The notes beneath the pieces were generated by a model. The model was not told where the DNA came from and did not search any database. It was given only the letters and a program-made list of their open reading frames with translations. Positions 5,501 to 50,436 of a DNA stretch of 56,725 nt are shown piece by piece; the stretch's first letter is position 1, and each line of letters opens with the position of its first letter. The DNA is from Pseudomonadota bacterium (lineage in GTDB: Bacteria > Pseudomonadota > Gammaproteobacteria > Burkholderiales > Burkholderiaceae_C). Where the stretch lies: positions 1-56,725 of the forward strand of contig JAFEEH010000207.1 of NCBI GenBank assembly GCA_018241185.1, written 5' to 3'. Made by a program: the position numbers and the translations under genes.

Positions 5501-6160
5501 ATGCGACGTGCGCTAAGCGCTCCTTTTTTGATAGCAACTTCCCTGGCCCTGGCGGGCTGCGCGACGTCGTGGACGGTCGACAGCCAGGTCCGCAGCTTCT
5601 CCCGATTGGGCGCCCTGCCGCCCGAACCCACCTACCGCTTCGATCGCCTGCCCTCGCAGCAGGCCCAAAGCGCGGCGCAGGACGAGGTGGAGGCGATGGC
5701 TGCGCCCGCCCTGGCGGCGGTTGGCCTCCGGCGGGACGATGCCCAGCCGCGCTATGCCGTCCAGGTGACGGCCCGGGTCGCGCCCGAGCTGTCGCCCTGG
5801 GCCGACCCCTGGATGGGGCCGGGCTGGGGCCCGGGCTGGGGCGGCGGCCTGGGTTATGGCCGCGGCTGGCGCGGCGCCGCGTGGTACGGCGGCTGGGGGT
5901 GGGGTCCCGGCTTCGGCCCGCCGGCCGATCCCTGGTACGGCCGGGAGGTCAGCGTGGTGATGCGCGAGCTGCCGTCGAACCAGGTGGTCTACGAGACCCG
6001 GGCCCGACATGACGGGCCCTACAGCGACAGCCGCGCGGTGCTGCCGGTGATGTTCCAGGCGGCGATGCAGGGTTTTCCAGCGCCGCCCGCGGGCGAGCGG
6101 CGGGTGGACATCACGCTGCCACCCAAGGGCACGCGGGCCGCCGCCGCGGCCCCGCGTTGA
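5501..6160 (+). CDS. DUF4136 lipoprotein
   Basis: A 219-aa predicted outer-membrane lipoprotein. The signal peptide ends in a lipobox (LALAGC, Cys at residue 20). A DUF4136-like body follows (FDRLPSQQAQ near residue 50, conserved REVSVVMRELPSNQVVYETRA after the middle). A Gly/Trp/Tyr-rich spacer (residues about 107-145) is typical of this family. GGAGG lies 5 bases before the ATG. The signal-peptide DNA resembles the dispersed ~60-bp repeat, read in the same frame as two other genic copies. Function is unknown. Confidence 0.8.
   Translation: MRRALSAPFLIATSLALAGCATSWTVDSQVRSFSRLGALPPEPTYRFDRLPSQQAQSAAQDEVEAMAAPALAAVGLRRDDAQPRYAVQVTARVAPELSPWADPWMGPGWGPGWGGGLGYGRGWRGAAWYGGWGWGPGFGPPADPWYGREVSVVMRELPSNQVVYETRARHDGPYSDSRAVLPVMFQAAMQGFPAPPAGERRVDITLPPKGTRAAAAAPR
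5515..5557 (+). repeat. Dispersed ATAGCTGC repeat, partial copy 1 (coding)
   Basis: Encodes APFLIATSLALAG of the DUF4136 signal peptide. It matches the left half of the repeat (GCTC, T-run, GATAGC, then TGGC and GCGGGC) but the middle has diverged, so homology is probable rather than certain. Confidence 0.4.
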
Positions 6161-6218
6161 GTGCGAGCGGCATGCCGCGGCGCAGCATGATCGCGATGGT
6201 CTTCCTAGAATCGACCGG

Positions 6219-6863
6219 ATGGAAGCCACCCGCCTGATCGCCGTGCGCCATGGCGAAACCGCCTGGAACGCCGACACGCGCATCCAGGGCCACATCGACA
6301 TCCCGCTCAACGACACGGGCCTGTGGCAGGCGGCGCGCGCCGGCGAGGCGCTGGCCGACGAGACGGTGGGCGCCATCTACGCCAGCGACCTGCAACGGGC
6401 CTGGCAGACGGCCCAGGCCATTGCGCAGGCCCAGACGAAACCCTTGGAGGTGGTGGCCGACCCGCGCCTGCGCGAGCGCGCCTTCGGCAGCTTCGAGGGC
6501 CGGACCTTCGCCGGCATCGAAGCCGAAACCCCCGAGGATGCCCGCCGCTGGCGCCAACGCGACCCGCACTTCGCGCCTGCCGGCGGGGAGAACCTGGTCG
6601 ACTTCCGACAGCGCATCACCGCCGCCGCCGCCGACATCGCGGCGCGGCACCCCGGCGAGCTGGTGGTGCTGGTCGCGCACGGCGGCGTCATGGATGTCCT
6701 GTACCGCGCGGCCACCGGGCAGGAGATCCAGGCCCCACGGACCTGGGCACTCGGCAACGCCGCCATCAACCGTTTGCTCTGGACGCCGCAGGGCTTTTCG
6801 CTCGTGGGCTGGGGTGACGTGGGGCATCTGACCGACGGCCTGCTCGACGAGACCAGCGCCTGA
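6219..6863 (+). CDS. Histidine phosphatase family protein (phosphoglycerate mutase-like)
   Basis: A 214-aa histidine phosphatase. The catalytic RHGETAWN is at residues 9-16, SDLQRAWQTA carries the second conserved arginine, RERAFGSFEG the glutamate, and LVAHGG the second histidine. Members labelled GpmB or CobC have this architecture and act on small phosphorylated metabolites. Cofactor-independent phosphatase activity is more likely than true mutase activity, but the substrate cannot be deduced. No cobalamin genes are adjacent. Confidence 0.85.
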   Translation: MEATRLIAVRHGETAWNADTRIQGHIDIPLNDTGLWQAARAGEALADETVGAIYASDLQRAWQTAQAIAQAQTKPLEVVADPRLRERAFGSFEGRTFAGIEAETPEDARRWRQRDPHFAPAGGENLVDFRQRITAAAADIAARHPGELVVLVAHGGVMDVLYRAATGQEIQAPRTWALGNAAINRLLWTPQGFSLVGWGDVGHLTDGLLDETSA

Positions 6864-7273
6864 GCGCGCACGCGGCGTCCCGCGATCGACCTTGTTGCTG
6901 CAGTGCAGCAACCCCTGAGGCAGATTTGTAACGTCTCGGACGGTTTTTTGCGCGTCGAAAGTCCACACTTCGTCTACAAAACTCAGTGTTTAGTATTCAT
7001 TTCTTACAGATTTGCGCGCACAATGTGTCCTGACGGGGGCGGTCTGTGAACTTGTCAACACGAAGTGCGCAACCAGTTGCGACGCTGCGTGACAAATTCT
7101 TCGAACGACATATGCCTTTGCTTTGAGCCTCTGGCTGATGGCGCGGCTGTGCAAAACACCGAAGATCGCTCAAAAATGAGTCCTTTGTTATTACAAAATT
7201 CGGACAAAGGCGGAAGGAATGACGACATCGGCAGGCTGGCCTGCTGATCGATAGACGCGAAGGGGCACAGCGG
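6864..7273 (+). promoter_or_regulatory. Leader region of the NRPS-PKS operon
   Basis: A 410-bp gene-free stretch, clearly more AT-rich than its surroundings, ahead of the biosynthetic operon. It contains a possible -10 (TAGTAT near 6993), a 52-bp imperfect dyad (7048-7099) and a short inverted repeat CCTTTGT/ACAAAGG (7182-7188 and 7204-7210). No open frame here looks coding. No regulator gene is adjacent, so control is probably by a distant factor. The promoter position is only a guess. Confidence 0.45.
7048..7099. repeat. 52-bp imperfect dyad upstream of the NRPS-PKS operon
   Basis: The left arm begins GAACTTGTCA (7048-7057) and the right arm ends TGACAAATTC (7090-7099); nine of ten outer bases pair. 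At the centre CGCAAC-CA-GTTGCG (7068-7081) is a perfect 6-bp inverted repeat. No T-run follows, so it looks more like an operator or a leader RNA hairpin than a terminator. Confidence 0.55.
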
Positions 7274-19677
<12,404 letters not shown>

Positions 19678-22244: not shown

Positions 22245-22706
22245 ATGAACCCCATGAACCGCTGCCTCACCCCGACGATTGCTCTCAAAAAGATAGCTGC
22301 CAGCGCAATACTGGCGGGCGTTTCAGGCCTTTTTGGCTTGAATGCGCTGGCCCAGAACCCGATCCCGCAGACGCAGAACGAAGCCGCCCTGGGCGGGCGC
22401 AACTTCCCGATCAACACCCTGCGCGGAAAGATGGTGGTCACCGGCTTTCCGGAAATGCAGCTGGACGGCATCGCCGAAAGGCTGGCGCCCGGCGCGCGCA
22501 TCCGCAACACGCAGAACATGATCATCCAACCGGCCACCATCACCGGCCAGTACCTGGCGGTGAACTACCGCCGCGATGCGGCCGGGCTGGTGAGTGACGT
22601 GTGGATCCTCACGCCGACCGAGGCCAGCGCCGAACGTGCGCAGTTGAACAAGCCGTTCCTGAACTTCTGGCCCTTCGTCTCCGCCGCCGAGAACGAAGCG
22701 CGCTGA
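22245..22706 (+). CDS. Small exported protein of unknown function
   Basis: A 153-aa protein (150 aa if the second Met is used) with a Sec signal peptide whose likely cleavage follows NALAQ. The mature part has a conserved-looking core (NFPINTLRGKMVVTGFPE, then LAPGARIRNTQNMI and WILTPTEA) rich in beta structure; I do not recognise the family. Nearly the entire hydrophobic stretch of the signal peptide (IALKKIAASAILAGVSGLFG) is encoded by a copy of the dispersed repeat. It stands alone between the biosynthetic operon and miaB. Confidence 0.7.
   Translation: MNPMNRCLTPTIALKKIAASAILAGVSGLFGLNALAQNPIPQTQNEAALGGRNFPINTLRGKMVVTGFPEMQLDGIAERLAPGARIRNTQNMIIQPATITGQYLAVNYRRDAAGLVSDVWILTPTEASAERAQLNKPFLNFWPFVSAAENEAR
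22275..22347 (+). repeat. Dispersed ATAGCTGC repeat, copy 2 (coding, signal peptide)
   Basis: Matches the intergenic copies over almost its full length (GATAGCTGCCAGCGC, GGCGGGCGTTTCAGGC, TTTTTGGCTTGAA) and is translated as the hydrophobic core of the small exported protein's signal peptide. Confidence 0.75.
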
Positions 22707-22726: not shown

Positions 22727-22797
22727 CGTTTTTCCAAGCCAAAAGTGGCCGCAGCGCCCGCCAGTCGGGCGCGAGCAGCTATTGATTTCATAGCAAC
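22727..22797 (-). repeat. Dispersed ATAGCTGC repeat, copy 3
   Basis: An intergenic copy between the small exported protein and miaB: CCAAGCCAAAAGTGG at one end, GGGCGCGAGCAGCTAT near the other. It sits just before the miaB ribosome-binding site. Confidence 0.8.
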
Positions 22798-24165: not shown

Positions 24166-24178
24166 GAGACGGGCAGGC

Positions 24179-24265
24179 GAACGCAGAGGGCGCAGAGATT
24201 CCGCAGAGGCCTCAGAAGAAATTCATGAAGGTTTTTTCTGCGCGACCTCTGCGCCCTCTGCGTTC
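24179..24265. repeat. Long palindrome built on GCAGAGGGCGCAGAG
   Basis: A perfect 19-bp inverted repeat (24179-24197 and 24247-24265) whose 49-bp loop contains a further near-complementary pair (CAGAAGAAA and TTTTTTCTG). It lies between miaB and the sensor kinase and could fold as one long hairpin. It may end miaB transcription in either direction, or be a copy of a genome-wide palindromic element. Confidence 0.7.
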
Positions 24266-24301
24266 GGCCGTCCGTCTTTGCATCGAAGAAAGCTGCCGCT
24301 G

Positions 24302-28240: not shown

Positions 28241-30250
28241 ATGAAGCCGAACGAATTCTCTCAACTGAAGGTCCTGACCCCGGCCGACTTCTCGCACCGC
28301 AGCCCGGTGCGCGAAGAGCGCCACCCGAACTCGGTCACGGCCCCGCCGGTCAACCGGGGCTCGATGACGCCGCGCCCGTGGCGCGGCTTCTGGAACAGCA
28401 TCGGCACCGCCTTGCTGCTCAAGCTCGGCGCGGGCGGCCGTCAGGCGGCGCCCGAAGTCGCCCAATTCCCCAAGCAGCCCTGGGAGCGCGCCGCCAAGCA
28501 GCGCCGCGCGGTCTTCATGCTGCTGGCCGTGCTCAGCACGGTGATGGCCTCGACGCTTTTCGCGCAGGTGCAGCCCGACTACGACAACCTCTGGCTCGAA
28601 TACGGCCAGATCGGGCTGTACGGCCTGCTGTCGGGCTGGGTCGTGACCGGCTTCGTCACGGCGCTGATGGGCTTTTATGTCTCCGTGCGCGGTGACAGGC
28701 ACGCGCTGTCGGCCAAGCAGGTGGCAAACCATCCGATGAACCCCGACGCACGCACGGCGATCATCATGCCGATCTGCAACGAGGACGTCGCCACTGTCTT
28801 CGCCGGGCTGCGCGCCACCTGCGAATCGGTTGCCAACACCGGCCACGCGCAGCAGTTCGACGTCTTCGTGCTGTCGGACAGCTACAACCCCGACATCGCC
28901 AAGGCCGAACGTGCCGCCTGGGAAGAGTTGCGCGCCGCCCTGGCCGAGCATCCGAACCAACCGCAGGTCGAGGTGTACTACCGCCTGCGCACCCGCCGCA
29001 CGCACCGCAAGGCCGGCAACGTGGCCGATTTCTGCCGCCGCTGGGGCAAGGACTACCGCTACATGGTCGTCCTCGACGCCGACTCGGTGATGAGCGGCGA
29101 CTGCCTGACCTCGATGGTCAAGCTGATGGAAGCCAACCCGAGCGCCGGCATCATCCAGACCGCCACGCAGGCCATCGGCCATGTGACGCTGCACGCTCGC
29201 GCCCAGCAATTCGCCAGCCGCGTGACCGGCCGCCTGTTCACCCTGGGCATGCAGTTCTGGCAACTCGGCGAGTCGCACTACTGGGGCCACAACGCGATCA
29301 TCCGCGTCGAGCCCTTCATGAAGCACTGCGCGCTGGCCCCGATCAAGGGCACCGGCGGCATGTCGGGCGGCATCATGTCGCACGATTTCGTCGAGGCTGC
29401 GCTGATGCGCCGTGCCGGCTACCACGTGTGGCTGGTGTCTGACCTGGTCGGCAGCTACGAGCAACAACCGCCGGACCTGCTGGCCGAACTCACCCGCGAC
29501 CGCCGCTGGTGCCAGGGCAACCTGCAGAACGCCCGCCTGATGGCCGAACCCGGCATCGCCCCGGTCCACCGCGCGATGTTCGTCACGGGCACCATGGCGT
29601 ACGTGTCGGCGCCCCTGTGGCTGGCCTTCCTCACCCTGGGCACCGCCCTGTGGCTGACCGGCTCGAGCCTGGTCGAGCACTGGATGGTGATGCCGATGGA
29701 ATTGGCTGGCCTGTGGCTGTGGACGCTGTGCCTGCTGTTCCTGCCCCGCATTCTTGGCCTGACCGCCGTGCTGATGCGCGGCGAGCAGAAGCAGTACGGC
29801 GGCGTGGCCAGCCTGCTCAAGAGCGCCGTGCTCGAGAGCGCCATGGCGATCGTCCAGGCCCCCGTGCGCATGCTGGCGCATTCGCTCTTCGTGGTCGTGG
29901 CGCTGACCGGCATCAAGCTGGAGTGGAAGTCGCCTCCGCGGGAAGCCGCCGCCGTCCCGTGGCGCGAAGCCGCCGCCCGCCTGCTGCCGATGAGCGGCAT
30001 CGTGGCGGCCCTGGGTGTGGCCGTGGCCCTCATCGACGCCAGCGCCCTGGTGTGGCTGATGCCCGTCGCCCTGCCGCTGCTGCTGGCCATCCCGATGGCC
30101 GTCGTGACCAGCCAGATCGCCCTGGGTACCAGCATGCGCGAAGCGAACTTCCTGCTGATTCCGGAAGAGTCGCGTTCGCCGGCCGTGCTGCGCCGCGCCT
30201 GGATGCATGCCGACCGCCTGGCCCAGCCGAAGTCGCTGTTGGCCAGCTGA
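28241..30250 (+). CDS. opgH: Osmoregulated periplasmic glucan glucosyltransferase OpgH
   Basis: A 669-aa inner-membrane family-2 glycosyltransferase that polymerises UDP-glucose into the beta-1,2 backbone of periplasmic glucans. TM helices flank residues 85-150; the catalytic region has IIMPICNEDV, the LDADSV acidic motif and RDRRWCQGN. A cluster of TM helices lies at the C-terminus. It is shorter than the 847-aa E. coli protein, mainly at both ends. AAGAAGGA precedes the ATG. No opgG partner is adjacent. It sits directly downstream of the predicted GlrR/sigma54 promoter. Confidence 0.92.
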   Translation: MKPNEFSQLKVLTPADFSHRSPVREERHPNSVTAPPVNRGSMTPRPWRGFWNSIGTALLLKLGAGGRQAAPEVAQFPKQPWERAAKQRRAVFMLLAVLSTVMASTLFAQVQPDYDNLWLEYGQIGLYGLLSGWVVTGFVTALMGFYVSVRGDRHALSAKQVANHPMNPDARTAIIMPICNEDVATVFAGLRATCESVANTGHAQQFDVFVLSDSYNPDIAKAERAAWEELRAALAEHPNQPQVEVYYRLRTRRTHRKAGNVADFCRRWGKDYRYMVVLDADSVMSGDCLTSMVKLMEANPSAGIIQTATQAIGHVTLHARAQQFASRVTGRLFTLGMQFWQLGESHYWGHNAIIRVEPFMKHCALAPIKGTGGMSGGIMSHDFVEAALMRRAGYHVWLVSDLVGSYEQQPPDLLAELTRDRRWCQGNLQNARLMAEPGIAPVHRAMFVTGTMAYVSAPLWLAFLTLGTALWLTGSSLVEHWMVMPMELAGLWLWTLCLLFLPRILGLTAVLMRGEQKQYGGVASLLKSAVLESAMAIVQAPVRMLAHSLFVVVALTGIKLEWKSPPREAAAVPWREAAARLLPMSGIVAALGVAVALIDASALVWLMPVALPLLLAIPMAVVTSQIALGTSMREANFLLIPEESRSPAVLRRAWMHADRLAQPKSLLAS

Positions 30251-30303
30251 TGCTACGGAATCGATAGCTGCCGGCGCCCGCCTGGCGGGCGTTTCAGCCC
30301 GAT
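30248..30303 (+). repeat. Dispersed ATAGCTGC repeat, copy 4
   Basis: Begins at the opgH stop codon: CGATAGCTGCCGGCGC and GGCGGGCGTTTCAGCCCG. It lies between the end of opgH and the terminator. Confidence 0.75.
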
Positions 30304-30309
30304 TCGGCA

Positions 30310-30349
30310 CCCAAAGAAAAAGCCCGCTTGAGCGGGCTTTTTCTTTGGG
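30310..30349. terminator. Bidirectional terminator between opgH and ruvA
   Basis: A perfect 18-bp stem with loop TTGA. The core AGCCCGC/GCGGGCT is flanked by A-rich and T-rich runs on both sides, so it works for both convergent genes. Confidence 0.9.
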
Positions 30350-30967: not shown

Positions 30968-33016
30968 TCAAGGGGATGTCCACGCGTAGTAGGCGATGCC
31001 TTCGTCGTGGAACTGGGGGTACTTGGCGATCACGTTCGCCCGTTCGGTACCGCTGATCGTATAGAAGTGCGTCTCGGTCTGGACGTTGTAGAAGCGGTAC
31101 ATGGGCGACGCCGTGCCGCCCGCGCCACCGTTGACATACCAGGCCACGCCCTCATAGGAGAACTGCGCATACTTTGCGCGTACCTGATCGCGTTCCTGGG
31201 CACTCACCGTGAAGAAGTGGGCGCCGGTCTTGGTGTTGTAGAAGCGATAGACCGGCGTCGTGCTCGCACTTTGCGAAGCGTCGGCGTAGAAGCCGATGCC
31301 CTCGTACGAGTACTGCGGGTACTTGGCGCGCACGCTGTCGCGCTCGGCTGTGCTCACCGTGTAGAAGTGGGTTCCGGTCTTCGTGTTGTAGAAGCGATAG
31401 ATCGGCACGTGCGAGCCAGGCGTGGTCGGCGTCGTCGGCGTGGTGGTCGGCGTGCCGCCGAGCCATTGGTAGAGTGCGGCGTTGTACGCCACGTCGAAGC
31501 GGCCGAAGTATTCGTTGTCGTTCGGCGCCGAGCAGGACGAGAAGCCGCCGTACAACTGCCCCACGAGGTAGGGCGTGCCGTTGGTGTTCATGAACAGCCC
31601 GCCGCCGCTGCTGCCACCCAACGTGGTACCGACACTCCAGTTCACGCGCAGGAAGTTGGACGGGGTGGAAAAGATGCATGCGCCGGAGGAATTGAATTGA
31701 GGGCAGGCCGAGATCGGTCCGGTGGACACCCCGCTGCTGTACTGCTGCCAGCCCCCGCCCGGGTTGCTGATGCTGAAGACGGTTTGTGTGCCTGACAAGC
31801 CCCCCGGTGCCGAAGCGGCATAGCGAACCCCAGCGGGCGGCATGCCGTAGAGCCGCAGGAAGCTGGTGTCGGTCTGGCTGCTGTTGTACAGCAGCGCCGC
31901 GCCGGTCTTCGTGCGGATCGCCGCAGGCGAGATCACCGGACTGTTGCAACCGGCCGAGCGATAGAACCAGTAGGTCGCCAGGCTGCTGGCGGAGGTCTGG
32001 GACGAGATGCAGTGGTTCGCGGTCAGCAGGTAGGGCGTACCGGACGACCTGTCATCGTTCATCAGCGTCCCGGTGCAGACGTACGTCCCGCTTCCGAGCT
32101 GGAAATCGAGTTGTGCTACAGCCTGCGAGCTGGCACTCACGCCCTGTTCGCCGAGATAGCAGTTCACATCCTTCGTGCACGACCCCGCCGCCTGCTGGAG
32201 GCTGGCAACGTCCTTGGCATCGAGGTAGATGTGCGACAGCGCAGGCACCGCCACCTCGACCGTGTCCGTGGGCACACCGGGCGGCACCTCGAACTCGACC
32301 GTGACGGCATCGCCGCCCAGGTTGGGCGACCACCAGGTGTGCGCGTCCTCGCCGGTGTCGCCGGCGTCCAGGTTGCGCTGGATCGTGGCCTGGATCTCCT
32401 GGGCCGCCACCTGGTAAGCCTCGTTGCTGCCATCGGTGTGGAAACGCACCAGCCCGCCCAGCGGCAGGCTGTAGACCCGCAGGCCGACGCGCACGCCGAG
32501 CGCGCCTTCCGACTGGAAGCGCAACGCCGCCACCTTGCCGCCGCGGCGCGACGGCCGCCAGTCGAGTTGGGCCGCCACGCGCGCCTGATCGGCGGTGTCC
32601 TGCAACTCACGCCCCGTCCCGATGCGCACCGGCACGGGACCGCTCGTGCTCGCCTTCTGAAGCGGCACGTCCGCGGCGGACAGCACGCCGAGCCGGATCT
32701 GGCGCGCCGGCGGGGCGTCCTGGGCGTCACGGCCCACGAAGGGGGTCACGTCCGTGGTCTGGGCACCGTCGCTGATCCGGCCCTCGATGAGTCGGGTCGG
32801 CTGACTGCCGGCGCCGGCGCCCGCCGAGGTGCCCGCGGGCAGCGTCGCGGCGGGCAAGAACTCTGCGGATGCAGGCTGCGTCGCGGTCGCCGTTTCCGGC
32901 GCCGCGGCCGACTGGGCGACTCCGGCCACGCCACCGCCCCCGGATCCTCCGCCGCAGCCCGCCAGCACCAGCACCGCAGCCAGACCGACTGCCACCCATT
33001 CCCTGCTCGTTCGCAT
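30968..33016 (-). CDS. Secreted trypsin-like serine protease lipoprotein with three C-terminal FYN repeats
   Basis: A 682-aa protein. A lipobox signal peptide (LVLAGC) is followed by a Gly-rich linker, then an all-beta N-terminal region. A chymotrypsin-fold protease of the lysyl-endopeptidase type follows, with TANHCI carrying the catalytic His and GGSSGGG the Ser. The last 130 residues are three tandem ~43-aa repeats, each starting Y-R-F-Y-N-x-x-T-x-x-H-F and ending EG-[IV]-x-[FWY]-Y, of the DUF5648 type seen in secreted bacterial proteins. It probably acts at the cell surface. It lies immediately upstream of ruvA and may have inserted there. Confidence 0.85.
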
Positions 33017-34120: not shown

Positions 34121-34130
34121 GGCTGCGGTT

Positions 34131-34182
34131 GCTATGCAATTGATAGCTACCCGCGCAGGCAGGACGGGCGCTGGCGCCCTTT
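34131..34182 (+). repeat. Dispersed ATAGCTGC repeat, copy 5
   Basis: TTGATAGCTACCCGCGC followed by GGACGGGCGCTGGCG, in the gap between the phoH-like gene and ybeY. Confidence 0.7.
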
Positions 34183-34198
34183 TCTCTTCGAAAGTGCC

Positions 34199-34672: not shown

Positions 34673-35299
34673 GTGGCCGACGACCCGGGCGACGGCCCCG
34701 ACGACTGGCTGCCGCGCTGGCTCCCCTTGCTGAAGGCCAGCGCCGCCGACGCCGCCGGCGCCCCGGTGCTCGAGCTGGGCTGCGGACCCGGCCGCGACAC
34801 GGCCATGCTGGTCGGCGCCGGGCTGTCGGTCGTCGCCCTCGAACTCTCGACCGCACGGCTGGACGAAGCCCGGCAACGCGTGCCCGCCGGTGCGAGCTTC
34901 CACACGCAGGACATCCGCGCCCCCTTCCCGCTCGACGCGTCGTCGGGCCGTGCCGGTGCGGTGCTGGCGAGCCTGTCCCTGCACTACTTCGACTGGCCCG
35001 AGAAGCTGCGGCTGGTGGCGCGCATCCGCCAGACGCTGCAGCCCGGCGGCCTGCTGGTGTGCCGGCTGAACTCGGTGCATGACCTGCACCACGGCGCGCA
35101 GGCCGGCACGCCCATCGACGCGGCGGACCCGCTCTTCGTGCATGTCGACGGCTGGGACAAGCGCTTCTTCGACCGGCCGCAGGTCGAGGCGCTGTTCGCC
35201 CGCGGCTGGCATTGGCATCACCTCGAAGAACGCACGGTGATGCGCTACCGCCTGCCCAAGGTCCTGTGGGAGGCCGTGCTCACGCGCGACGGCGACTAG
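34673..35299 (+). CDS. Class I SAM-dependent methyltransferase
   Basis: A 208-aa methyltransferase starting at GTG. Motif I is LELGCGPGRDTAML, motif II is VALELS, and TQDIRAPFP and ASLSLHYFDW follow at the expected positions. The substrate is unknown. It begins 6 bp after ybeY and probably shares its transcript. The stop codon lies immediately at the edge of a 263-bp inverted-repeat element. Confidence 0.82.
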   Translation: MADDPGDGPDDWLPRWLPLLKASAADAAGAPVLELGCGPGRDTAMLVGAGLSVVALELSTARLDEARQRVPAGASFHTQDIRAPFPLDASSGRAGAVLASLSLHYFDWPEKLRLVARIRQTLQPGGLLVCRLNSVHDLHHGAQAGTPIDAADPLFVHVDGWDKRFFDRPQVEALFARGWHWHHLEERTVMRYRLPKVLWEAVLTRDGD

Positions 35300-35561
35300 G
35301 GCCAGTTAACGCTATGCAAGGGGATCGCGTTGCCTCGCCCAGGGGCTGGATGCAAGGCGCCTGCGCGCAGCAAGGCCGAGGCCTTGCAAGCGCGGGCAAC
35401 GCCGCAGACGGCCCCTGGGCGCAGCAACCCGAAGGGAAGCTCATCACAGCCCGCCCCTCGGCGTTGCGCTCCTTGTGCGTGTGCACACACGCACGGCGTC
35501 GCGCGCCTTGATGGGCGGCTGTGATGAGCTTCGCGACCCCTTGCATAGCGTCAACAGGCCC
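35299..35561. repeat. 263-bp non-coding element with 25-bp terminal inverted repeats (MITE-like)
   Basis: The ends are nearly perfect inverted repeats (35299-35323 and 35537-35561; core CGCTATGCAAGGGG; two mismatches). Inside is a second inverted pair around AGCTCATCACAGC (35436-35456 and 35513-35532) and a GTGCGTGTGCACACACGCAC near-palindrome. No credible gene is present. It fills the gap between the methyltransferase and dtd. Confidence 0.65.
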
Positions 35562-35571
35562 TAAGCCCCGA

Positions 35572-35625
35572 ACCGGGCTGCAGCGCCCGTCCCGCTTGCG
35601 CGAGCAGCTATGAAATCTGTAGCGG
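35572..35625 (-). repeat. Dispersed ATAGCTGC repeat, copy 6 (overlaps the dtd stop)
   Basis: GGGCTGCAGCGCCCGTCC then TTGCGCGAGCAGCTATGAAAT. The last codons and stop of dtd lie inside it. Confidence 0.75.
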
Positions 35626-36138
35626 GATGGTGACCGGCCCGTCGTTCACCAGATGCACCTTCATGTCGGCCGCGAAGATGCCGGTCGCCACGTCGGGATG
35701 CGCGGCGCGGGCCTGCGCCACGAACAGGTCGTAGAGCCGGCGCGCGTCGTCGGGCGGCGCCGCGCCGGTGAAGCTGGGCCGGTTGCCGCCGCTCACGTCG
35801 GCGGCCAGCGTGAACTGGCTCACCAGCAGCAGGCCGCCGCCCACGTCCTGCACGCTGCGGTTCATCTTGCCCGAACTGACAGCCCCCCGGCTCGCCACTG
35901 CGTGTGCTTCGCCACCCCCCGAGGGGGAGGCGCTGCCGCCTTGGGGCGGCCCGGCGGCGACAGCCTCATCACTGAAGATCCGCAGCCTCAGGATCTTGCC
36001 CAGCAGGCGCTCGCCGGCGGCCTCGGTGTCGCCCCGCTCGGCGCACACCAGCACCAGCAGGCCATGGCCGATGCGCCCGACCACCTCGCCGTCGACCTCC
36101 ACGCGCGCCTCGCTCACGCGCTGCAGCACGGCCTTCAT
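35608..36138 (-). CDS. dtd: D-aminoacyl-tRNA deacylase with a ~30-residue insert
   Basis: A 176-aa Dtd, which removes D-amino acids mischarged onto tRNA. Start [18 protein letters not shown], the active-site VSQFTLAAD and NRPSF, and the late GPVTIPLQ are canonical. The family is usually about 145 aa. The excess lies between LRIFSDEA and [11 protein letters not shown], where about 30 residues rich in Gly, Ser, Ala and Pro have been added in frame. The inserted DNA (about 35878-35968) is a GC-rich, palindromic-looking segment. Start overlaps the CDF transporter stop (ATGA). Confidence 0.93.
35878..35968 (-). repeat. In-frame GC-rich insert within dtd
   Basis: Encodes the extra ~30 residues of Dtd. 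It contains CCCCCCGAGGGGG and CCGCCTTGGGGCGG, both self-complementary. A 16-nt part (AGCGCCTCCCCCTCGG) also occurs, in the same frame, in the N-terminal extension of the MidA-like gene, suggesting a mobile or repeated sequence. Confidence 0.55.
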
Positions 36139-38356: not shown

Positions 38357-38378
38357 GCACGTCCGTGGCACGCGCCGC

Positions 38379-38412: not shown

Positions 38413-38423
38413 TCACGCCGAAT

Positions 38424-38488
38424 TTTTTGAATGAAATCGGGCTCCAGCGCCCGTCCTGCCTGCGCGAGCAGCTATCAAAAGATGAGCA
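38424..38488 (-). repeat. Dispersed ATAGCTGC repeat, copy 7
   Basis: CGGGCTCCAGCGCCCGTCC then TGCGCGAGCAGCTATCAAAA, between the terminator and the end of tyrS. Confidence 0.8.
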
Positions 38489-38509
38489 ACTCGCGCGGTT
38501 CGCCAGAAA

Positions 38510-39742: not shown

Positions 39743-39903
39743 TTGGATTTTTGTGGGGAAAGCAACGACCGAAAGCTATACTCCGGCCGGTTTCTTGAGC
39801 GCTGCATTCTAAGCGCCGCTCCTTTTTCGCCCCGCCTGAAGACCTTCGTTGGCCCGCAACTTGCTGGCACAGGCGGTCGCCGAACCCGAGCTGGATTTCT
39901 GAG

Positions 39904-41262: not shown

Positions 41263-41287
41263 GCGCCCCGGGGGCAGCCACAATCCG

Positions 41288-41313
41288 AAGCGCCGCTGTT
41301 GCGGCGCTTTTTT
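41288..41313 (+). terminator. Terminator after the M23 peptidase gene
   Basis: AAGCGCCGC-TGTT-GCGGCGCTT followed by a T-run, a clear rho-independent hairpin 23 bp before the anmK start. Confidence 0.85.
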
Positions 41314-41335
41314 CTTTCCGGAGGACCTCGCCGTC

Positions 41336-42469: not shown

Positions 42470-42536
42470 ATTTTTCAAGCCAAACAGGGCTGAAACGCGC
42501 GCTGGACGGGCGCGAGCAGCTATCAAAAAAAGAGCG
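42470..42536 (-). repeat. Dispersed ATAGCTGC repeat, copy 8 (reference copy)
   Basis: The most complete copy: TTTTTCAAGCCAAACAGGGC, TGAAACGCGCGCTGGACGG, GCGCGAGCAGCTATCAAAAA. It fills the gap between the convergent anmK and DHA2 exporter genes. Confidence 0.85.
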
Positions 42537-42538
42537 AC

Positions 42539-43990: not shown

Positions 43991-44038
43991 GGTCTGCGGA
44001 TTCCCTGGGGCACGCCGCGACGTCGGGCCGCGGCAACG

Positions 44039-44060
44039 AAAAAGCCGCCCGGAGGCGGCT
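44039..44060 (-). terminator. Terminator after erpA
   Basis: On the minus strand AGCCGCC-TCCG-GGCGGCT followed by T-rich sequence, 60 bp past the erpA stop. Confidence 0.75.
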
Positions 44061-44122
44061 GGAACGGTGACACGGGGAGCGCGGGGTGGTGGTCGTTGCG
44101 TGCTCGCCCGGTCAAGATGGGA

Positions 44123-44494
44123 TCAGGCCGAGAAGCTCGAACCGCAGCCGCAGGTGCTGGTGGCGTTCGGGTTCTTGATCACGAACTGGGCGCCCTGCAG
44201 GTCTTCCTTGTAGTCGATCTCGGCGCCGACCAGGTACTGGTAGCTCATCGCGTCGATCAGCAGCGACACACCGTTCTTGGTCATGGTCGTGTCGTCTTCG
44301 TTGGTGATCTCGTCGAAGGTGAAGCCGTACTGGAAGCCCGAGCAGCCGCCACCCTGCACGAACACGCGCAGCTTCAGGTCGGGATTGCCCTCTTCGGCGA
44401 TCAGATCCGCCACCTTGGCCGCCGCGCTGTCGGTGAAGACGATCGGCTCGGGCATCTGGCTGGGGGTGCTGATGGTTTCGGCAACTGCGCTCAT
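44123..44494 (-). CDS. erpA: Iron-sulfur cluster insertion protein ErpA
   Basis: A 123-aa A-type carrier that delivers [4Fe-4S] clusters to target enzymes. The three cluster cysteines are in [11 protein letters not shown] and the C-terminal CGCGSSF. A-type features [11 protein letters not shown] and [25 protein letters not shown] are intact. It follows rplM-rpsI as usual in this group, but a terminator separates them. Confidence 0.95.
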
Positions 44495-44562
44495 GGATGG
44501 TTCTCCGTGGGGGCCACCGTACGAAATAGCAGGCGGCCAAGGGAAGGAATGCTACCCCAGAC

Positions 44563-44587
44563 AAAGAAAAACCGCCCCGAGGGCGGT
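44563..44587 (-). terminator. Terminator after rpsI
   Basis: On the minus strand ACCGCCC-TCG-GGGCGGT followed by TTTTCTTTG, 23 bp past the rpsI stop. It ends the rplM-rpsI transcript. Confidence 0.85.
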
Positions 44588-44609
44588 CTTTCCATAGGCA
44601 GCAGCCAGA

Positions 44610-45002
44610 TCAGCGCTTGCTGAACTGTTTGCGGCGACGTGCGGAATGCAGACCGACCTTCTTGCGTTCCACTTCGCGGGCGTCACGGGTGACGAAACCG
44701 GCCTGGCTCAGCACCGGCTTGAGGTTCGCGTCGTAGTCGATCAGGGCACGGGTGATGCCGTGGCGGGTCGCGCCGGCCTGGCCGGATTCGCCGCCGCCGT
44801 GGACGTTGACCTGGATGTCGAAGGTCTCGACGTTCTCGGTCAGCACCAGGGGCTGCTTGGCGATCATGATCGAGGTCTGGCGGCCGAAGAACTCTTCGAT
44901 CGCCTTGCCGTTCACCGTGATCTTGCCGGTGCCCTTCTTGAGAAACACGCGGGCGACGCTGGACTTGCGTCGGCCGGTGCCGTTGTTCCAATCACCAATC
45001 AT
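44610..45002 (-). CDS. rpsI: 30S ribosomal protein S9
   Basis: A 130-aa S9. [19 protein letters not shown] at the start and the C-terminal basic tail ending RRKQFSKR, which reaches the ribosomal P site, are canonical. It lies 11 bp after rplM. Confidence 0.98.
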
Positions 45003-45013
45003 CTCAAGGCTCC

Positions 45014-45442
45014 TTAGATTTCCAGCGCCTTGGGCTGCTGGGCGGTGTGCGGATGCTCTGCACCGCCATACACCTTGAGTTTCTTGATCATCGCGTAACC
45101 GAGCGGGCCCTTGGGCAGCATGCCCTTGACAGCCTTCTCGAGGGCACGGCCGGGGTGCTTGGCCTGCATGTCGCGGAAGTTGGTGGCCGTGATGCCGCCG
45201 GGGAAGCCCGAATGACGGTAGTACACCTTGTCGAGCGACTTGGTGCCGGTGACCTTGAGCTTGGAGGCGTTGACGATGACGATGAAATCGCCGGTGTCGA
45301 CGTGAGGCGTGTAAATGGCCTTGTGCTTGCCGCGCAGTCGGAGGGCCACTTCGCTGGCTACCCGTCCGAGGACCTTGTCGGTCGCGTCAATCACAAACCA
45401 CTCGTGCACGACCTCAGCGGGCTTTGCGCTGAAAGTAGACAT
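45014..45442 (-). CDS. rplM: 50S ribosomal protein L13
   Basis: A 142-aa L13. [49 protein letters not shown] and [19 protein letters not shown] are all characteristic. An in-frame ATG 14 codons upstream exists; the ATG at 45442 fits the family start ([15 protein letters not shown]) and has a purine-rich AGGAAAAC site before it. Confidence 0.98.
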
Positions 45443-45632
45443 GAGTTTTCCTGAAAAGGAGGTTTGCTGAGGGCCCTTTTCCACGGTCGGTCTTCCTCTG
45501 AAGGGAAGCTCTTAGGTGGGAGGAATGCCAGGGATCCGGAGGATCGAAGGCGTCTTTGCCGCGGGGCCCGAAAATCGCTGCAAAGCCAACGATCATAACA
45601 TCCGGGACACCGTGCAACAAGACGTCTCGCTC

Positions 45633-46751
45633 TCAGCGCTGGATTCGCACCAATTCCAGGCTTTCGCGCAATGCAGGGCCGTAGGCCTGCCTCATGGTGG
45701 CATCGAACTTGACCGGCCGTTGCAAGGCCGGCGCATAGCTCACGTCGGCCTGAAACGGCACGCCAGTCAACGATCCCATCGAGAGGCCTGACGGGGTGTA
45801 CACCCACCCCTCATAGCGGAGTCGCAGCACGTCCAATGGCTGTCCGTCCAGCAGTTGCACATCGCGGCCCGTGATCGTGGCCTGCAGCTCGTGACGCCAT
45901 TTGGGCCCGGTCTGGGCGACATAGCTTTCCTGCCACCGCGTACCAGGGCCGCCCTGAGGCGGGACCCAGCCTTCGGGCGGACTGGACGCATCGAACAGTC
46001 CCGCCGTCGGCGACGACAGCGAGATGAGCCGGCCACTCGATGTCTCGACCCGCGCCCCCTGGTTGAAAACCACCTCGTTCCGCTCTGCGCGATCCACGCG
46101 GTAATAGATGCGCGAGCTGTTGCCCGTGAGCCCATCGGTCAGCCGGTACTCGAGAACATCTCCCCGACGCAGTGCCGCGGCGACCGGCGCCGCGGTCGGC
46201 GCGGACGCGGCCAACACCGGGGACGCAGGCGCGGCGACCGGTGCATCGACCTGCGCCGCACGGGCCTCGCTTGCCGGCACGACGCGCAACAGCTCTCCAG
46301 CCGTCGGGCCATCACCGCGATTGCTTTGCCGGTCGAAACGCCGCTCCTGGCCAAACACCAACTGCATCCACGTCGGATAGGTGTAGGCAGCGCCCGTGCC
46401 AACATCGACGGCGGCGCCGATGGCACCGCCCAGCAGAATGTTTCCGGCCAGGCCGGCATTTCCACGCGAGACCGCCTGCCCGAGCGCGGGAACCTGCCCG
46501 TCCAGCTCGCACCGGATCGTCATGTCGCCGCCCGCCCGCCTCACAGGTCCGGCCTTCCCGGATCGCAGTACGGCTCGCCCCTTCTCGTTGACCAGCACGC
46601 ATTCGGCGTCGCTCAGCGCGCGACCGTCCGCAGTGATCGTCTCCACTTTGACGCTTTGCTCCGTGCCCTGCGTCACGGATGCACACCCGGTCAGCAACGA
46701 CAATAGCGCGACACACCCCGGTGCCAGCCAAGCACGACCCACCTCAACCAT
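45633..46751 (-). CDS. Lipoprotein of unknown function
   Basis: A 372-aa lipoprotein: signal peptide ending SLLTGC, then an N-terminal beta domain (ASVTQGTEQSVKVET, ECVLVNEKGR) resembling PEGA-like lipoproteins. A Gly/Ala-rich, possibly membrane-seeking stretch (AGNILLGGAIGAAVDVGTGA) follows, then an Ala/Pro linker. The C-terminal half is beta-rich (GDVLEYRLTDGLTGNSSRIYYRVD, LRLRYEGWVYTPSG). I do not recognise the family. It lies convergent to nothing obvious and divergent from rlmJ. Confidence 0.72.
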   Translation of the reverse strand: MVEVGRAWLAPGCVALLSLLTGCASVTQGTEQSVKVETITADGRALSDAECVLVNEKGRAVLRSGKAGPVRRAGGDMTIRCELDGQVPALGQAVSRGNAGLAGNILLGGAIGAAVDVGTGAAYTYPTWMQLVFGQERRFDRQSNRGDGPTAGELLRVVPASEARAAQVDAPVAAPASPVLAASAPTAAPVAAALRRGDVLEYRLTDGLTGNSSRIYYRVDRAERNEVVFNQGARVETSSGRLISLSSPTAGLFDASSPPEGWVPPQGGPGTRWQESYVAQTGPKWRHELQATITGRDVQLLDGQPLDVLRLRYEGWVYTPSGLSMGSLTGVPFQADVSYAPALQRPVKFDATMRQAYGPALRESLELVRIQR

Positions 46752-46812
46752 GCGCTCACCTCCTCATTTGTTACGACAAGTGTATGAGCGTGCCTTGTGA
46801 GTCCATCTATCC

Positions 46813-47715
46813 GTGTTCAGCTACCGCCACGCCTTTCATGCCGGAAATCATGCCGATGTGCACAAACACACGGTGCTGATCGCCACCCTCGAGCACCTGC
46901 TCGAAAAGCCCGCGCCGATCACGGTGATCGACACCCATGCCGGCGCCGGCCTGTACCGGCTCGACGGCGACTATGCCGGCACCAGCGGCGAGGCGGCCGA
47001 TGGCGTGCTGCGCCTGCTGGGGCCCGCGGCCAGCGACGCGGGGGCGCAACCGCTGCCGCCGGCCCTCGCGCGCTACCTGGAGGTGGTGCGCAGCTTCAAC
47101 CGCGAGGGCCAGGCCCGCGTGTACCCGGGCTCGCCCTTCATCACCCACCACCTGCTGCGCGATGACGACAAGCTCAAGCTCTACGAACTGCACCCGACCG
47201 ACGCGCGCACGCTGGACGCCAACATCGCCCAGCTCGACGCCGGCCGGCAGATCGCCGTGCTGCGCGAGGACGGCTTCGGCAGCGCCACCAAGTTCCTGCC
47301 GCCACCCTCACGACGCGCGCTGGTGCTGGTGGATCCGAGTTATGAACTGAAGACCGACTACGCCCGCACGGCAGCCTTCATCGGCGAAGCGGTCAAGCGC
47401 TTCGCCACGGGCGTGTACGCCGTGTGGTACCCCATCATTCCCAGGCCCGAGGCGCACGACCTGCCGCGCCGGCTCAAGACCCTGGCCAACAAGGCCGGCA
47501 AGCCCTGGCTGCACGCGACGCTCACGGTCAAGTCGAGCAAGCTCACGACCAACGCGGCGGGCGAGACCCAACGGCCGGGCCTGCCCGCCAGCGGCATGTT
47601 TCTGATCAACCCGCCCTACACCCTGGCCGACCAGTTGCGCCCGGCGCTCGCACGCCTGGCCGAGGCGCTGGCGCAGGACCGCCACGCCGGCTACGCCGTG
47701 GAGACGGGCGGCTGA
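46813..47715 (+). CDS. rlmJ: 23S rRNA (adenine2030-N6)-methyltransferase RlmJ
   Basis: A 300-aa methyltransferase of the YhiR/RlmJ family. FSYRHAFHAGNHADVHKH at the N-terminus is diagnostic, with VIDTHAGAGLYRL as SAM motif I and LVDPSYELK as the catalytic D-P-x-Y motif (usually DPPYE). NPPYTLAD lies near the end. GTG start. Confidence 0.94.
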   Translation: MFSYRHAFHAGNHADVHKHTVLIATLEHLLEKPAPITVIDTHAGAGLYRLDGDYAGTSGEAADGVLRLLGPAASDAGAQPLPPALARYLEVVRSFNREGQARVYPGSPFITHHLLRDDDKLKLYELHPTDARTLDANIAQLDAGRQIAVLREDGFGSATKFLPPPSRRALVLVDPSYELKTDYARTAAFIGEAVKRFATGVYAVWYPIIPRPEAHDLPRRLKTLANKAGKPWLHATLTVKSSKLTTNAAGETQRPGLPASGMFLINPPYTLADQLRPALARLAEALAQDRHAGYAVETGG

Positions 47716-48040
47716 CCCACACAGCCGCGGAACCACTGCCCCTTGCGGATTTATTTAGTCACGCGCCCAGGTGCTGCATCGGCCTCTGAGTCGTGCACTG
47801 CTGCACGACCGGCGTGACTGCGCACCGGCACAGCAAAGAAGTGTCGATTTATTACTGTTGTCGCAAGGCGTCTCCTTCTACAGTGCGACGCGTCACACAG
47901 GGGGCGTTAGGGAGAACTGGCGACAGGGAGAAGACGATGGCCGGGCCTGGGATTCGCACGACACGGGTCGGTGCAACCCAGGTCCTGGTGCCACGCCGCC
48001 AGATGCGAGTCGCGCGACCTCGTCGGGCCAGCCGCCGCGC
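47716..48040. other. Gene-free interval between rlmJ and rlpA
   Basis: 325 bp between two convergent genes. It holds a short perfect palindrome (GTCGTGCA-CTGC-TGCACGAC, 47790-47809) and an AT-richer patch around 47840. A clear T-tailed terminator is not visible. Open frames crossing it run antisense through rlpA and look non-coding. Confidence 0.5.
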
Positions 48041-48751
48041 CTATCGGCGACGCCGCCGCGCCGGCACCGTTTTCCTCGGGCGCGCCTCCGGCCGCTGCGC
48101 ATCGGCAAGTGCCACGCTGCTCGCGTCATCGGCTGGCGCCACCGCCACGCCGTTGCAACGCCCACCCGAAGCATCGATGCGCGTCAGCGCCACCTGCTTG
48201 ATGCCCAGGCCGATCATCTGGAGCTGCTCCGCGGCCGCCTGGCTCAGGTCGATGATGCGGCCGGCCGCATAAGGACCGCGATCGTTCACGCGCACCAGCA
48301 CCTCACGGCCATTGACCAGGCTGCGAACGCACAGGCGCGTGCCGAAGGGCAAGGTCTTGTGGGCCGCCGTGAAGCCCCCCATGTCGAAGCGCTCGCCGCT
48401 GGCCGTCTTGCGCTGATGAAACTGCAACCCGTACCAGGATGCACCACCGCGCTGGAACACTTCGCCGGGCGGACCATCGCCGGGCACGCCGTCGTCCGGC
48501 GGCAGATCTCCCTCGGTTCCCACCGCGAGGTCATAGCGAACGGACGCGACACGCGAGCGCGGCGCGTCGGCCGGCGCCCCGCCCTGCCGGGCCAGCGGGC
48601 GCAAGGGCGTGGTCGATGCCGCGCCTTCGCCGGCCTTCGTCGCCGTTCCGGATTCGCCCGGCGGCGTGGTGCAACCGGCGAGCGCCAGCGCCAGGCCGAT
48701 GCAGGCCAACCACGCGCCGCCACGACGCAAGGCGCGGCCCGCTGCCGTCAT
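48041..48751 (-). CDS. rlpA: RlpA-like septal-ring lytic transglycosylase lipoprotein
   Basis: A 236-aa lipoprotein (lipobox LALAGC). The double-psi beta-barrel of RlpA is clear: GGASWYGLQFHQRKTASGERFD, AAHKTLPFGTRLCV, VNDRGPYAAGRIIDLS. The SPOR domain found in some relatives is absent; the C-terminus is a basic Arg-rich tail. Its ATG overlaps the metF stop (ATGA), placing a cell-wall gene at the end of the methyl-cycle operon. Confidence 0.9.
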   Translation of the reverse strand: MTAAGRALRRGGAWLACIGLALALAGCTTPPGESGTATKAGEGAASTTPLRPLARQGGAPADAPRSRVASVRYDLAVGTEGDLPPDDGVPGDGPPGEVFQRGGASWYGLQFHQRKTASGERFDMGGFTAAHKTLPFGTRLCVRSLVNGREVLVRVNDRGPYAAGRIIDLSQAAAEQLQMIGLGIKQVALTRIDASGGRCNGVAVAPADDASSVALADAQRPEARPRKTVPARRRRR

Positions 48752-49593
48752 GCGCGCCAGCCCAGGCCCTGCAGCACACCGAGCGTCGCCGCAGCCTGGT
48801 TCATCGTGTAGAAATGGATCGCCGGGGCGCCGCCCGCCTGCAGCCGCTCGACCAGGCGCGTCACCACCTCCAGCCCGAAGGCCTTGATGGACGCCGTGTC
48901 GTCGCCGAAGCCCTGCAGCCGCAGCCGGATCCAGCGCGGGATCTCGGCACCGCAGGCGTCGGAGAAGCGCATCAGCTGTGTCGAGCTGGTAATGGGCATG
49001 ATGCCCGGCACGATCGGCACGTCGATGCCCGACCGGCGTGCATCGTCGACGAAGCGGAAGTACGCCTCGGGGCTGAAGAAGTACTGCGTGATCGCCGAAT
49101 GCGCGCCCGCTTTCACCTTGGTGGCGAAGGCCTGCAGGTCGGCTTCGGCCGAGCGGGCCTGCGGATGCACCTCGGGGTAGCAGGCGACTTCGACATGAAA
49201 TTCGTCGCCACACTCCTCGCGGATGAAGCGCACGAGGTCGCTCGCATAGTGGAACTCGCCGCCGATGCCGTAGCCGCTCGGCAAGTCGCCGCGCAGGGCC
49301 ACGAGCCGGCGCACGCCCATGCCCTTGAGCTCGGCGAGTTGCAAGCGCACGGTGTCGCGCGTGGCGCCGATGCATGAGAAATGGCTCGCTGCATCCACGC
49401 CCTCGGCCAGGATCTCCTGCACGGCGCCGAAGGTGCCGGCCTGCGTGGAGCCCCCCGCACCATAGGTAACCGAGCAGAACTCGGGCCGGTACGCGTACAG
49501 CTGCTGGCGCACCGCGCGCAGCTTGACCACGCCTTCTGGGGTCTTGGGCGGGAAGAACTCGAAACTCAGGGGCAAACGTTCGGGGGTGGCCAT
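48748..49593 (-). CDS. metF: 5,10-methylenetetrahydrofolate reductase
   Basis: A 281-aa MetF, which makes 5-methyl-THF for methionine synthesis. FEFFPPKTPEG, SVTYGAGGS, LVALRGDLP, GAHSAITQYFF and PGIMPI are canonical FAD/THF-binding segments. It is the third gene of the ahcY operon and so is expected to respond to the SAH riboswitch. Confidence 0.97.
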   Translation of the reverse strand: MATPERLPLSFEFFPPKTPEGVVKLRAVRQQLYAYRPEFCSVTYGAGGSTQAGTFGAVQEILAEGVDAASHFSCIGATRDTVRLQLAELKGMGVRRLVALRGDLPSGYGIGGEFHYASDLVRFIREECGDEFHVEVACYPEVHPQARSAEADLQAFATKVKAGAHSAITQYFFSPEAYFRFVDDARRSGIDVPIVPGIMPITSSTQLMRFSDACGAEIPRWIRLRLQGFGDDTASIKAFGLEVVTRLVERLQAGGAPAIHFYTMNQAAATLGVLQGLGWRA

Positions 49594-49638
49594 CGCCAGG
49601 GGTCCTCTCGGTGTCTTGTCGTTGTGTTGGTCGTCGTC

Positions 49639-50436
49639 TCAGGCACGCGCCGCGTGGACGAAGAACTCGCGGTTGCCGTCGCCTCCCGCGATCGGACTGT
49701 CCAGCCATTGCAGCACACGCAGCCCGGCGCCCTCGCAGGCCGCACGCAGCCGCTCCTCGACCACGGCGTACAGCGCCGGGTCGCGCACGATGCCGCCCTT
49801 GCCGATCTGCGCGGGCTGTAGTTCGAACTGCGGCTTGACCAGCATCAGCAGGTCGCCACCCGGCTTCAGCAGCGGCGCCAACGCCGGCAGCACCAGCGTC
49901 AGCGAGATGAAGGACAGGTCGCCGACGATCAGGTCGAAGACCAGACCGTCTTCAGAGCCAAATCGCGCTCCAACGCCCGCCCAGCCTGCGCCAGCAGCTA
50001 TCAATTCAGGAGCAGTCAGCGTGCGCGCGTTGACGCGCTCCACGGCCGTCACCCGCGTATCGGCGCGCAGCCGCTCGTGCAACTGGCCGTGGCCGACGTC
50101 GACGCCCACCACGTGCGCGGCGCCGCGCTGCAGCAGGCAGTCGGTGAAGCCGCCGGTGGACTGACCGACGTCGAGGCACAGGCGCCCGCTCGCGTCGATG
50201 CCGGTGGCGTCCAGCGCGCCCTCGAGCTTCAGCCCGCCGCGCGAGACATAGCGCGCCTCGGCCGCATCGGCCAGGTCCAGCTCGGCCCCGTCGGGCACCA
50301 CGTCGCCGTTCTTGGCGACGGCCCGCCACGCCTCGCCAGCGTGCAGGCGCCAGCGCAGGCCGCCGGCGATGAGCCGAGCTGCCTGCGAACGGGAGACCGC
50401 GAGTCCGCGGTCGACGAGCAACTGGTCTGCGCGCAT
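49639..50436 (-). CDS. tlyA: TlyA-family rRNA methyltransferase/hemolysin-like protein with a repeat-encoded insert
   Basis: A 265-aa protein: N-terminal S4 domain (MRADQLLVDRGLAVSRSQAARLI), then a methyltransferase domain (CLDVGQSTGGFTDCLLQRGA, FDLIVGDLSFISL, MLVKPQFE). In Mycobacterium TlyA 2'-O-methylates rRNA; the activity of this branch is not established. Between VERVNARTL and FDLIVGDLSF the protein carries about 23 residues (APELIAAGAGWAGVGARFG and neighbours) encoded by a copy of the dispersed repeat. Located between ahcY and metF, as in many beta-proteobacteria. Confidence 0.9.
   Translation of the reverse strand: MRADQLLVDRGLAVSRSQAARLIAGGLRWRLHAGEAWRAVAKNGDVVPDGAELDLADAAEARYVSRGGLKLEGALDATGIDASGRLCLDVGQSTGGFTDCLLQRGAAHVVGVDVGHGQLHERLRADTRVTAVERVNARTLTAPELIAAGAGWAGVGARFGSEDGLVFDLIVGDLSFISLTLVLPALAPLLKPGGDLLMLVKPQFELQPAQIGKGGIVRDPALYAVVEERLRAACEGAGLRVLQWLDSPIAGGDGNREFFVHAARA
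49948..50017 (-). repeat. Dispersed ATAGCTGC repeat, copy 9 (coding, inside tlyA)
   Basis: On the minus strand: GAATTGATAGCTGCTGGCGC, AGGCTGGGCGGGCGTTGG, GCGCGATTTGGCTCTGAA. Read in frame through tlyA, in the same frame as copies 1 and 2. Confidence 0.85.

Follow-up and report, generated by a model that had tools for sequence, protein, structure and literature searches.

A 66-bp repeat linked to a RAYT gene in Comamonadaceae and the apparent replacement of native codons by its genic copies

Rickettsia palindromic elements are translated within unrelated genes in compatible frames. DNA uptake sequences are much shorter than the 66-bp repeat treated here and are not known to be tied to a transposase gene. 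Closer to this repeat are the REP/REPtron systems, in which hundreds of short repetitive extragenic palindromic (REP) sequences—mostly intergenic and favoring positions between convergent genes—bear a conserved CT and a TAG near a G+C-rich stem and accompany one gene for a REP-associated tyrosine transposase (RAYT, or TnpA_REP), to which a repeat is adjacent. According to the accessible part of PMC8266576, known RAYTs recognize and bind a stem tagged with GTAG, and the site at which they cleave single-stranded DNA is CT. REP-type repeats are also found within genes of known function, and the sections of PMC3733652 available to us describe such GTAG-tagged REPs as insertions into genes. The Beta-proteobacterial repeat element (BRE), as characterized in the accessible part of PMC3110155, is another short dispersed repeat of Betaproteobacteria including Comamonadaceae, some copies of which lie in genes; it is 75-91 bp at full length in Bordetella, has at most 29 copies, and forms tandem arrays. 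The 66-bp repeat was noticed in contig JAFEEH010000207.1 of assembly GCA_018241185.1, whose 56,725 nucleotides, analyzed as a whole, are referred to as the window.

The copy number, the positions, the conserved CT and TAG near a G+C-rich (if imperfect) stem, and the neighboring single RAYT gene of REP/REPtron systems recur in the new repeat. However, it measures 66 bp, is asymmetric, mostly carries ATAG, and lacks clear covariation of pairs, and its tested genic copies mostly appear to replace native codons. In contrast to the intragenic REPs of PMC3733652, as far as that source was available, most of these tested copies add little or no length. The likeness to Rickettsia palindromic elements consists in the translation of the repeat in unrelated genes and preferred frames (two frames account for 29 of the 38 copies that are fully genic), whereas the lack of insertion at most tested sites and the identification of an associated RAYT gene set the two apart. 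BRE is distinguished from the repeat by its description alone (length, copy number, tandem arrays in the accessible part of PMC3110155) and not by sequence. The DNA uptake sequences known from Pasteurellaceae and Neisseria are likewise genome-wide motifs that occur in genes with an orientation bias, as reported in the part of PMC2346458 at hand. Neither the 66-bp repeat nor length-neutral genic REPs were found described in the portion of the literature surveyed, and six taxon or coding terms are all absent from the main text of RepRanger (PMC12306157). From the sequence comparisons set out below, we lean towards the view that the repeat represents a RAYT-linked REP-type family of Comamonadaceae whose genic copies overwrote native codons already resembling it.

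The repeat unit and its associated RAYT gene

In an alignment of 100 copies from the source genome, conservation is spread over about 66 columns with both ends sharp; the approximate consensus, in our reading of the alignments, is TGCTATCGAATTGATAGCTGCTCGCGCCCGCCNGGCGGGCGCTGCAGGCCGATTTGGCTTGAAAAC. Almost no variation is seen in the CT at columns 2-3 or in the TAG at columns 14-16, and the putative stem is an imperfect GCGC...GCGC. Of the 100 copies, 86% have A and 13% have G ahead of TAG, so that the GTAG at the foot of the stem that marks the GTAG-tagged REP superfamily is found in a minority only. The unit is asymmetric and does not consist of two inverted REPs, as a REPIN does. A structured-RNA interpretation was discarded: 104 copies yield no clear compensatory pairs, and Rfam matches the window only once, at a S-adenosylhomocysteine (SAH) riboswitch that has nothing to do with the repeat (51972-52040, minus strand, 51.9 bits).

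A second profile, built from 106 copies of the source genome with genic copies among them—its weights also underlie the profile sums given below—yielded 117 matches above 20 bits in 822,225 nt and 113 in 775,380 nt of that genome, the latter set having played no part in building the profile. Together, the 230 matches in 1,597,605 sampled bases (window included) of a 5,337,302-base genome extrapolate to about 770 copies. Chance or base composition as the source of the repeat is ruled out by two controls: the best score is 8.0 bits with the 106-copy profile in 16 loci (232,915 nt) of element-poor congeners, a set from which two loci of G005, a genome with nine matches, are omitted, and 9.9 bits in 1.6 Mb of reversed sequence of the source genome. 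The dispersed repeat claimed by the original prediction is therefore borne out, and it occurs in much of the family. A palindromic sibling of the repeat, CTGCAGCGCCCG..CGGGCGCTGCAG followed by a CCGATTG or a GAATTCGTCA tail, matches on both strands (L050:12443-12484, L077:5138-5178, L086:45-93, and others).

Each of six repeat-rich genomes of the genus, the source genome included, harbors one Y1_Tnp gene. The RAYT of the source genome contains HFH and CMAYIDLNPVRAG; which tyrosine of RAYT is catalytic is our assumption throughout. In five of the six genomes, again including the source genome, a repeat copy in inverted orientation abuts the RAYT stop codon, although two of the five, G010 and G014, are near-identical. 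The RAYT of element-poor G005 features HFR in place of HFH, and thus no second histidine in the HUH motif, and Ala in place of the presumed catalytic Tyr, six element-poor congeners carry LHPVRAG or QHPVRAG instead of LNPVRAG, and no RAYT match was obtained in a Y1_Tnp search of element-poor G003. Outside the genus, Ser occupies the position of the presumed catalytic Tyr in element-poor G033, while G032 keeps the RAYT residues and has 16 repeat matches. A survey of 70 genera of the family revealed at least five repeat matches in 25 genomes and a RAYT relative in 68. Repeat-rich genomes from other genera include G030, G040, and G045. At least five repeat matches occur in 20 of the 29 genomes with a RAYT score of at least 380 bits, but in five of the 41 below this score, an association that ignores phylogeny and is based on per-genome counts of up to 74 listed matches. 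The first profile found no match in 16 genomes of other families. The conserved CT and (A/G)TAG of the repeat fit the recognition known for RAYTs, even though ATAG dominates. A conserved palindrome, ATGTCCCC...AATTGGAATCTGACCCC, is located 3' of RAYT (L101, L104, L121-L200) in most family loci examined, those of element-poor genomes among them.

Genic copies compared with their orthologues

Out of 46 genic or 5'-end copies, 24 sites were chosen by us for comparison with orthologues, which were sought in four element-poor and four repeat-rich congeners; orthologous DNA was fetched for part of these sites. At none of the 14 sites aligned with element-poor congeners is there a gap of 22 residues, and most gaps range from 0 to 8. 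Five sites are gap-free in every element-poor genome aligned, namely those in RlmI, a glycosyltransferase-3N protein, an outer-membrane efflux protein, LpxB, and HscA; one of the PurL sites and DctP are gap-free in at least one such genome, giving seven sites in total. The largest gap within the repeat region, 14 residues, is found in the MetG linker (12 and 14 residues in two genomes). Compared with solved Escherichia coli structures, RlmI (3c0k) and LpxB (5w8n) align across the repeat without a 22-residue insert. Of the two sites in PurL, there is one at which the structure 1t3t has seven residues fewer. Since these alignments display little or no change in length, native codons underlie the repeat in the majority of the sites tested. 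The genic copies thus appear mostly not to be insertions but native codons replaced in place. Insertion in the manner of Rickettsia palindromic elements, to which the original prediction likened the repeat, is not supported by this comparison, given that a gain of 22 residues is missing at all 14 aligned sites and that RlmI and LpxB bear no insert relative to E. coli. Within the repeat, the proteins share 3-15 of 22 residues with their element-poor orthologues as against 62-95% identity in the flanks, and nucleotide divergence amounts to 0.48-0.50 within the repeat versus 0.16-0.18 outside, so that the codons there depart from those of the relatives.

Wherever a gap-free orthologue from the repeat-rich congeners G002, G010, or G013 was aligned, the repeat is present at the same genic site, with profile sums of +1 to +79. 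Values for G008 fall in between (-22 to +60, with 10 of 12 below +20), and the gap-free element-poor orthologues reach sums of -34 to -99, the null median being about -100. Copies in G008 have diverged about twice as fast as those of the other genomes (0.24 against 0.11 for genic copies; 0.080 against about 0.07 for the flanks). In G017, a member of another genus, repeat-like DNA is found at one PurL site (+37) and at the HscA site (+25), weaker traces at two further sites (-2 and -17), and none that is clear at a fifth (-65). The presence of repeat-like DNA at the same genic sites in a different genus indicates that the genic copies are old; the element-poor congeners have thus probably either lost them or never kept them. 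Resemblance to the repeat is above chance even in element-poor segments: in 13 of 21 gap-free ones it reaches or exceeds the 97th percentile of same-frame windows, and all nine gap-free segments from four other families, covering three sites, are above the null median. This suggests that native codons resembled the repeat before they were rewritten. Alternatively, the resemblance in congeners could be the residue of a lost copy.

Positions, reading frames, and copies in the window

Position counts were made with genes called by a home-made six-frame model seeded from assumed codon usage; the starts it calls are biased downstream, and N-terminal copies were therefore read from upstream starts. 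From 270 matches above 12 bits in the source genome, 55 outside the length limits were dropped, leaving 215 full-length copies, of which 131 are intergenic, 38 extend across gene 3' ends, eight extend across 5' ends, and 38 are located inside genes. Among the 124 intergenic copies with both neighbors in view, 41 lie between convergent and 11 between divergent genes; 760 gaps of at least 66 nt, taken for comparison, comprise 113 convergent and 191 divergent ones, a contrast that is uncorrected for spacer length. At gene 3' ends, the TGA or TAG of the repeat constitutes the stop codon in 18 of 19 sense-2 copies, because the overlap is 14 or 17 nt.

The 38 fully genic copies are distributed over the frames as follows: 19 in antisense-0, ten in sense-1, four in antisense-2, three in sense-2, two in antisense-1, and none in sense-0. 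The two favored frames, sense-1 and antisense-0, hold 29 of the 38 (p=7e-8) or, among the four frames in which the consensus is free of stops, 29 of 33 (p=5e-6), and the preference agrees between two separate sample sets (15 of 19 and 14 of 19). In these frames, the repeat is translated into the Ala-rich peptides AIELIAARARPAGAAGRFGLK and VFKPNRPAAPAGRARAAINSIA, whereas the two other open frames, in our translation of the consensus, read through Cys and one of them through Trp as well. The preferred frame that had been predicted is therefore real in kind, but it is one of two, and the antisense frame is the commoner one (19 versus 10). Among the coding copies of the window that had been said to share a single frame, the two genuine ones, at 22280 and 49949, do so; the additional copy at 2249 is coding in a different frame.

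Four sense-frame copies lie in N-termini resembling export signals: those of DctP, a SCO1-like protein (an identity based on our reading of the sequence), the product of the open reading frame (ORF) at 22245, and one more. To this extent, the proposal that the repeat may supply signal peptides has some substance. For the first three of these proteins, however, the N-termini of element-poor orthologues, judged by eye, are also leader-like, and the repeat would therefore have rewritten signal peptides rather than created them. The adoption of signal peptides from the repeat is contradicted by these three proteins, which come close to the case that the original prediction had itself named as speaking against it, that is, orthologues that lack the repeat but keep the peptide.

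Nine copies had been placed in the window. Eight of these places carry the repeat at 58-67 bits, whereas the one at 5515 was rejected as a chance resemblance (6.5 bits, E=0.38 with the first profile) and is not among the nhmmer matches used for the position counts. The total is still nine owing to an overlooked copy at 2249-2314 on the minus strand, located inside the ORF at 2145-3281 (minus) in the minor frame sense-2, which scores 24 bits with the first profile (over 2257-2299) and 37 bits with the 106-copy profile. The motif line put forward for the copies, TTTCAGCC-TTTGGCTTGAA, has no match in the window at up to three mismatches. Two further copies are genic and in sense frame 1: the one at 22280-22345 (plus) resides in the signal-peptide-like N-terminus of the ORF at 22245-22706 (plus), and the one at 49949-50014 (minus) in a tlyA-like gene (ORF 49639-50436, minus), whose product scores 173.8 bits against TIGR00478 (cut-off 185.8). 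The copy at 35559-35624 (minus) extends across the 3' end of the ORF at 35608-36138 (minus), with the TAG of the repeat serving as the stop codon, and the copy at 30251-30316 (plus) immediately follows the stop codon of an ORF ending at 30250 and precedes a terminator-like hairpin.

The remaining four copies are intergenic: 22729-22795 (minus), 34130-34196 (plus), 38422-38488 (minus), and 42470-42535 (minus), the last between convergent neighbors. The copy at 34130 can be aligned in five repeat-rich relatives, being most degraded in G008, and the segment containing it is absent from nine element-poor congeners; at 38422, about 145 nt of spacer including the repeat are missing in G013 and G008. 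Neither spacer proves insertion, because the 38422 copy is lost as part of the segment of about 145 nt and because the length of the 34130 spacer varies among element-poor genomes. Adjoining the copy at 35559 is a 270-bp unit resembling a miniature inverted-repeat transposable element (35296-35566, with 34-nt inverted ends), which has a second copy on contig C28 of the same genome (96%) and copies in G001 and G007, and is absent at this place in G010 and G014. The window also contains three direct repeats of 128 nt, spaced at 150 nt, within one ORF (30979-31406), and a long imperfect intergenic hairpin with 41-nt arms (24167-24277).

Possible origins of the genic copies and their significance

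In the reading towards which we lean, the repeat would be the non-autonomous partner of the single-copy RAYT, and copies would enter genes mainly by replacing resident sequence. Other copies would act as the source, in either ectopic conversion or single-strand annealing, and the process may start with a nick that RAYT makes at the conserved CT, close to the (A/G)TAG motif. Replacement would hit places where the native codons are similar to the repeat beforehand, selection would then retain frames translated into Ala-rich peptides free of Cys and Trp, and repeats would fade where RAYT is lost or altered. Replacement is favored over insertion because most of the genic copies tested lengthen the gene little or not at all.

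Several observations weigh against this reading. On the side of the RAYT link, ATAG dominates (86% A) where REPs usually have GTAG, clear compensatory base pairs were not found across the 104 repeat copies, and the RAYT of the source genome scores 73 bits against NCBIfam REP_Tyr_transpos, the curated cut-off of which is 80. Repeat-rich G008 has no copy at the end of its RAYT gene, and its genic copies are faded (10 of 12 below +20) though its RAYT keeps the presumed active-site residues. The RAYT of G004 keeps HFH and Tyr and has PVHAG, yet this genome has two repeat matches; nine of the 29 genomes with a high-scoring RAYT, G048, G074, and G091 among them, have fewer than five; and G070 has at least 74 matches, although a RAYT was not found in its 74%-complete assembly. 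On the side of replacement, MetG lacks 12 and 14 residues of the repeat region in two genomes. The ABC transporter at C128:55479 (-21, -21, and -17 residues in three genomes) fits insertion, and three genomes have a HemD that is shorter by 11-15 residues; both sets of values, as at all sites beyond the 14, are match lengths, which can run into the neighboring fragment of a joined query. G017 is repeat-like at genic sites where closer congeners are not, and the state before rewriting is visible only in relatives. No conversion event was seen, and a between-species comparison of state switches offers no support, being confounded by changes in the source lineage, which likewise turn the other state into the prevalent one.

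Length gains near 22 codons, as at C128:55479 and, in two genomes, in MetG, would be expected if 66-bp units had been inserted in frame long ago by ordinary REP insertion, small later deletions had restored protein length, and drift had erased the DNA signature in repeat-poor relatives. The age of the genic copies, for which the corresponding sites of G017 with their repeat-like DNA are the evidence, and the absence of the intergenic 34130 segment from element-poor congeners agree with such a history. Nevertheless, we consider it unlikely, since the five gap-free sites in RlmI, LpxB, HscA, the glycosyltransferase-3N protein, and the outer-membrane efflux protein would demand exact compensation in many genes, RlmI and LpxB are without such an insert relative to the E. 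coli structures, and native residue patterns are still present within the repeat region. An origin in place by point mutation, with the repeat as a DNA motif under selection or uptake bias and the frames as tolerated peptides, would account for the native resemblance and the preferred frames without any insertion, and an intragenic orientation bias has been reported for uptake sequences in the part of PMC2346458 at hand. This explanation seems improbable in view of the copy that adjoins the RAYT stop and of a repeat abundance that tracks RAYT similarity. The 66 conserved positions with their sharp ends also speak against it and far exceed the length of any uptake sequence known to us. Least credible by far is the model of the original prediction, in which a mobile element would enter genes in frame and bring along finished signal peptides, after the manner of Rickettsia palindromic elements: the frame bias and the four N-terminal sense-frame copies resembling export signals agree with it, but for DctP, the SCO1-like protein, and the 22245 protein, leader-like N-termini occur at the same place in element-poor orthologues, most of the sites tested show no insertion, and the finding that it had declared adverse to itself is already at hand in large part.

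Replacement by the repeat, the reading that we prefer, can be carried further, albeit tentatively and with a good deal more doubt, to a homing-like sequence drive, in which RAYT would nick repeat-like places genome-wide, essential genes included, and repair from other copies would rewrite them with their length unchanged. If so, stretches of PurL, LpxB, RlmI, HscA, MetG, and TlyA would be partly set by the consensus of a selfish DNA and, by extrapolation, dozens more housekeeping proteins would be affected.

Because a single genus contains species rich in the repeat and species poor in it, along with conserved and altered forms of RAYT, the idea of replacement is directly testable. If genic copies do arise in this way, REPs need not transpose by insertion, and it would be explained how repeat-derived peptides are tolerated in essential enzymes without disruption. 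A domesticated transposase would then be a force that edits protein sequences.

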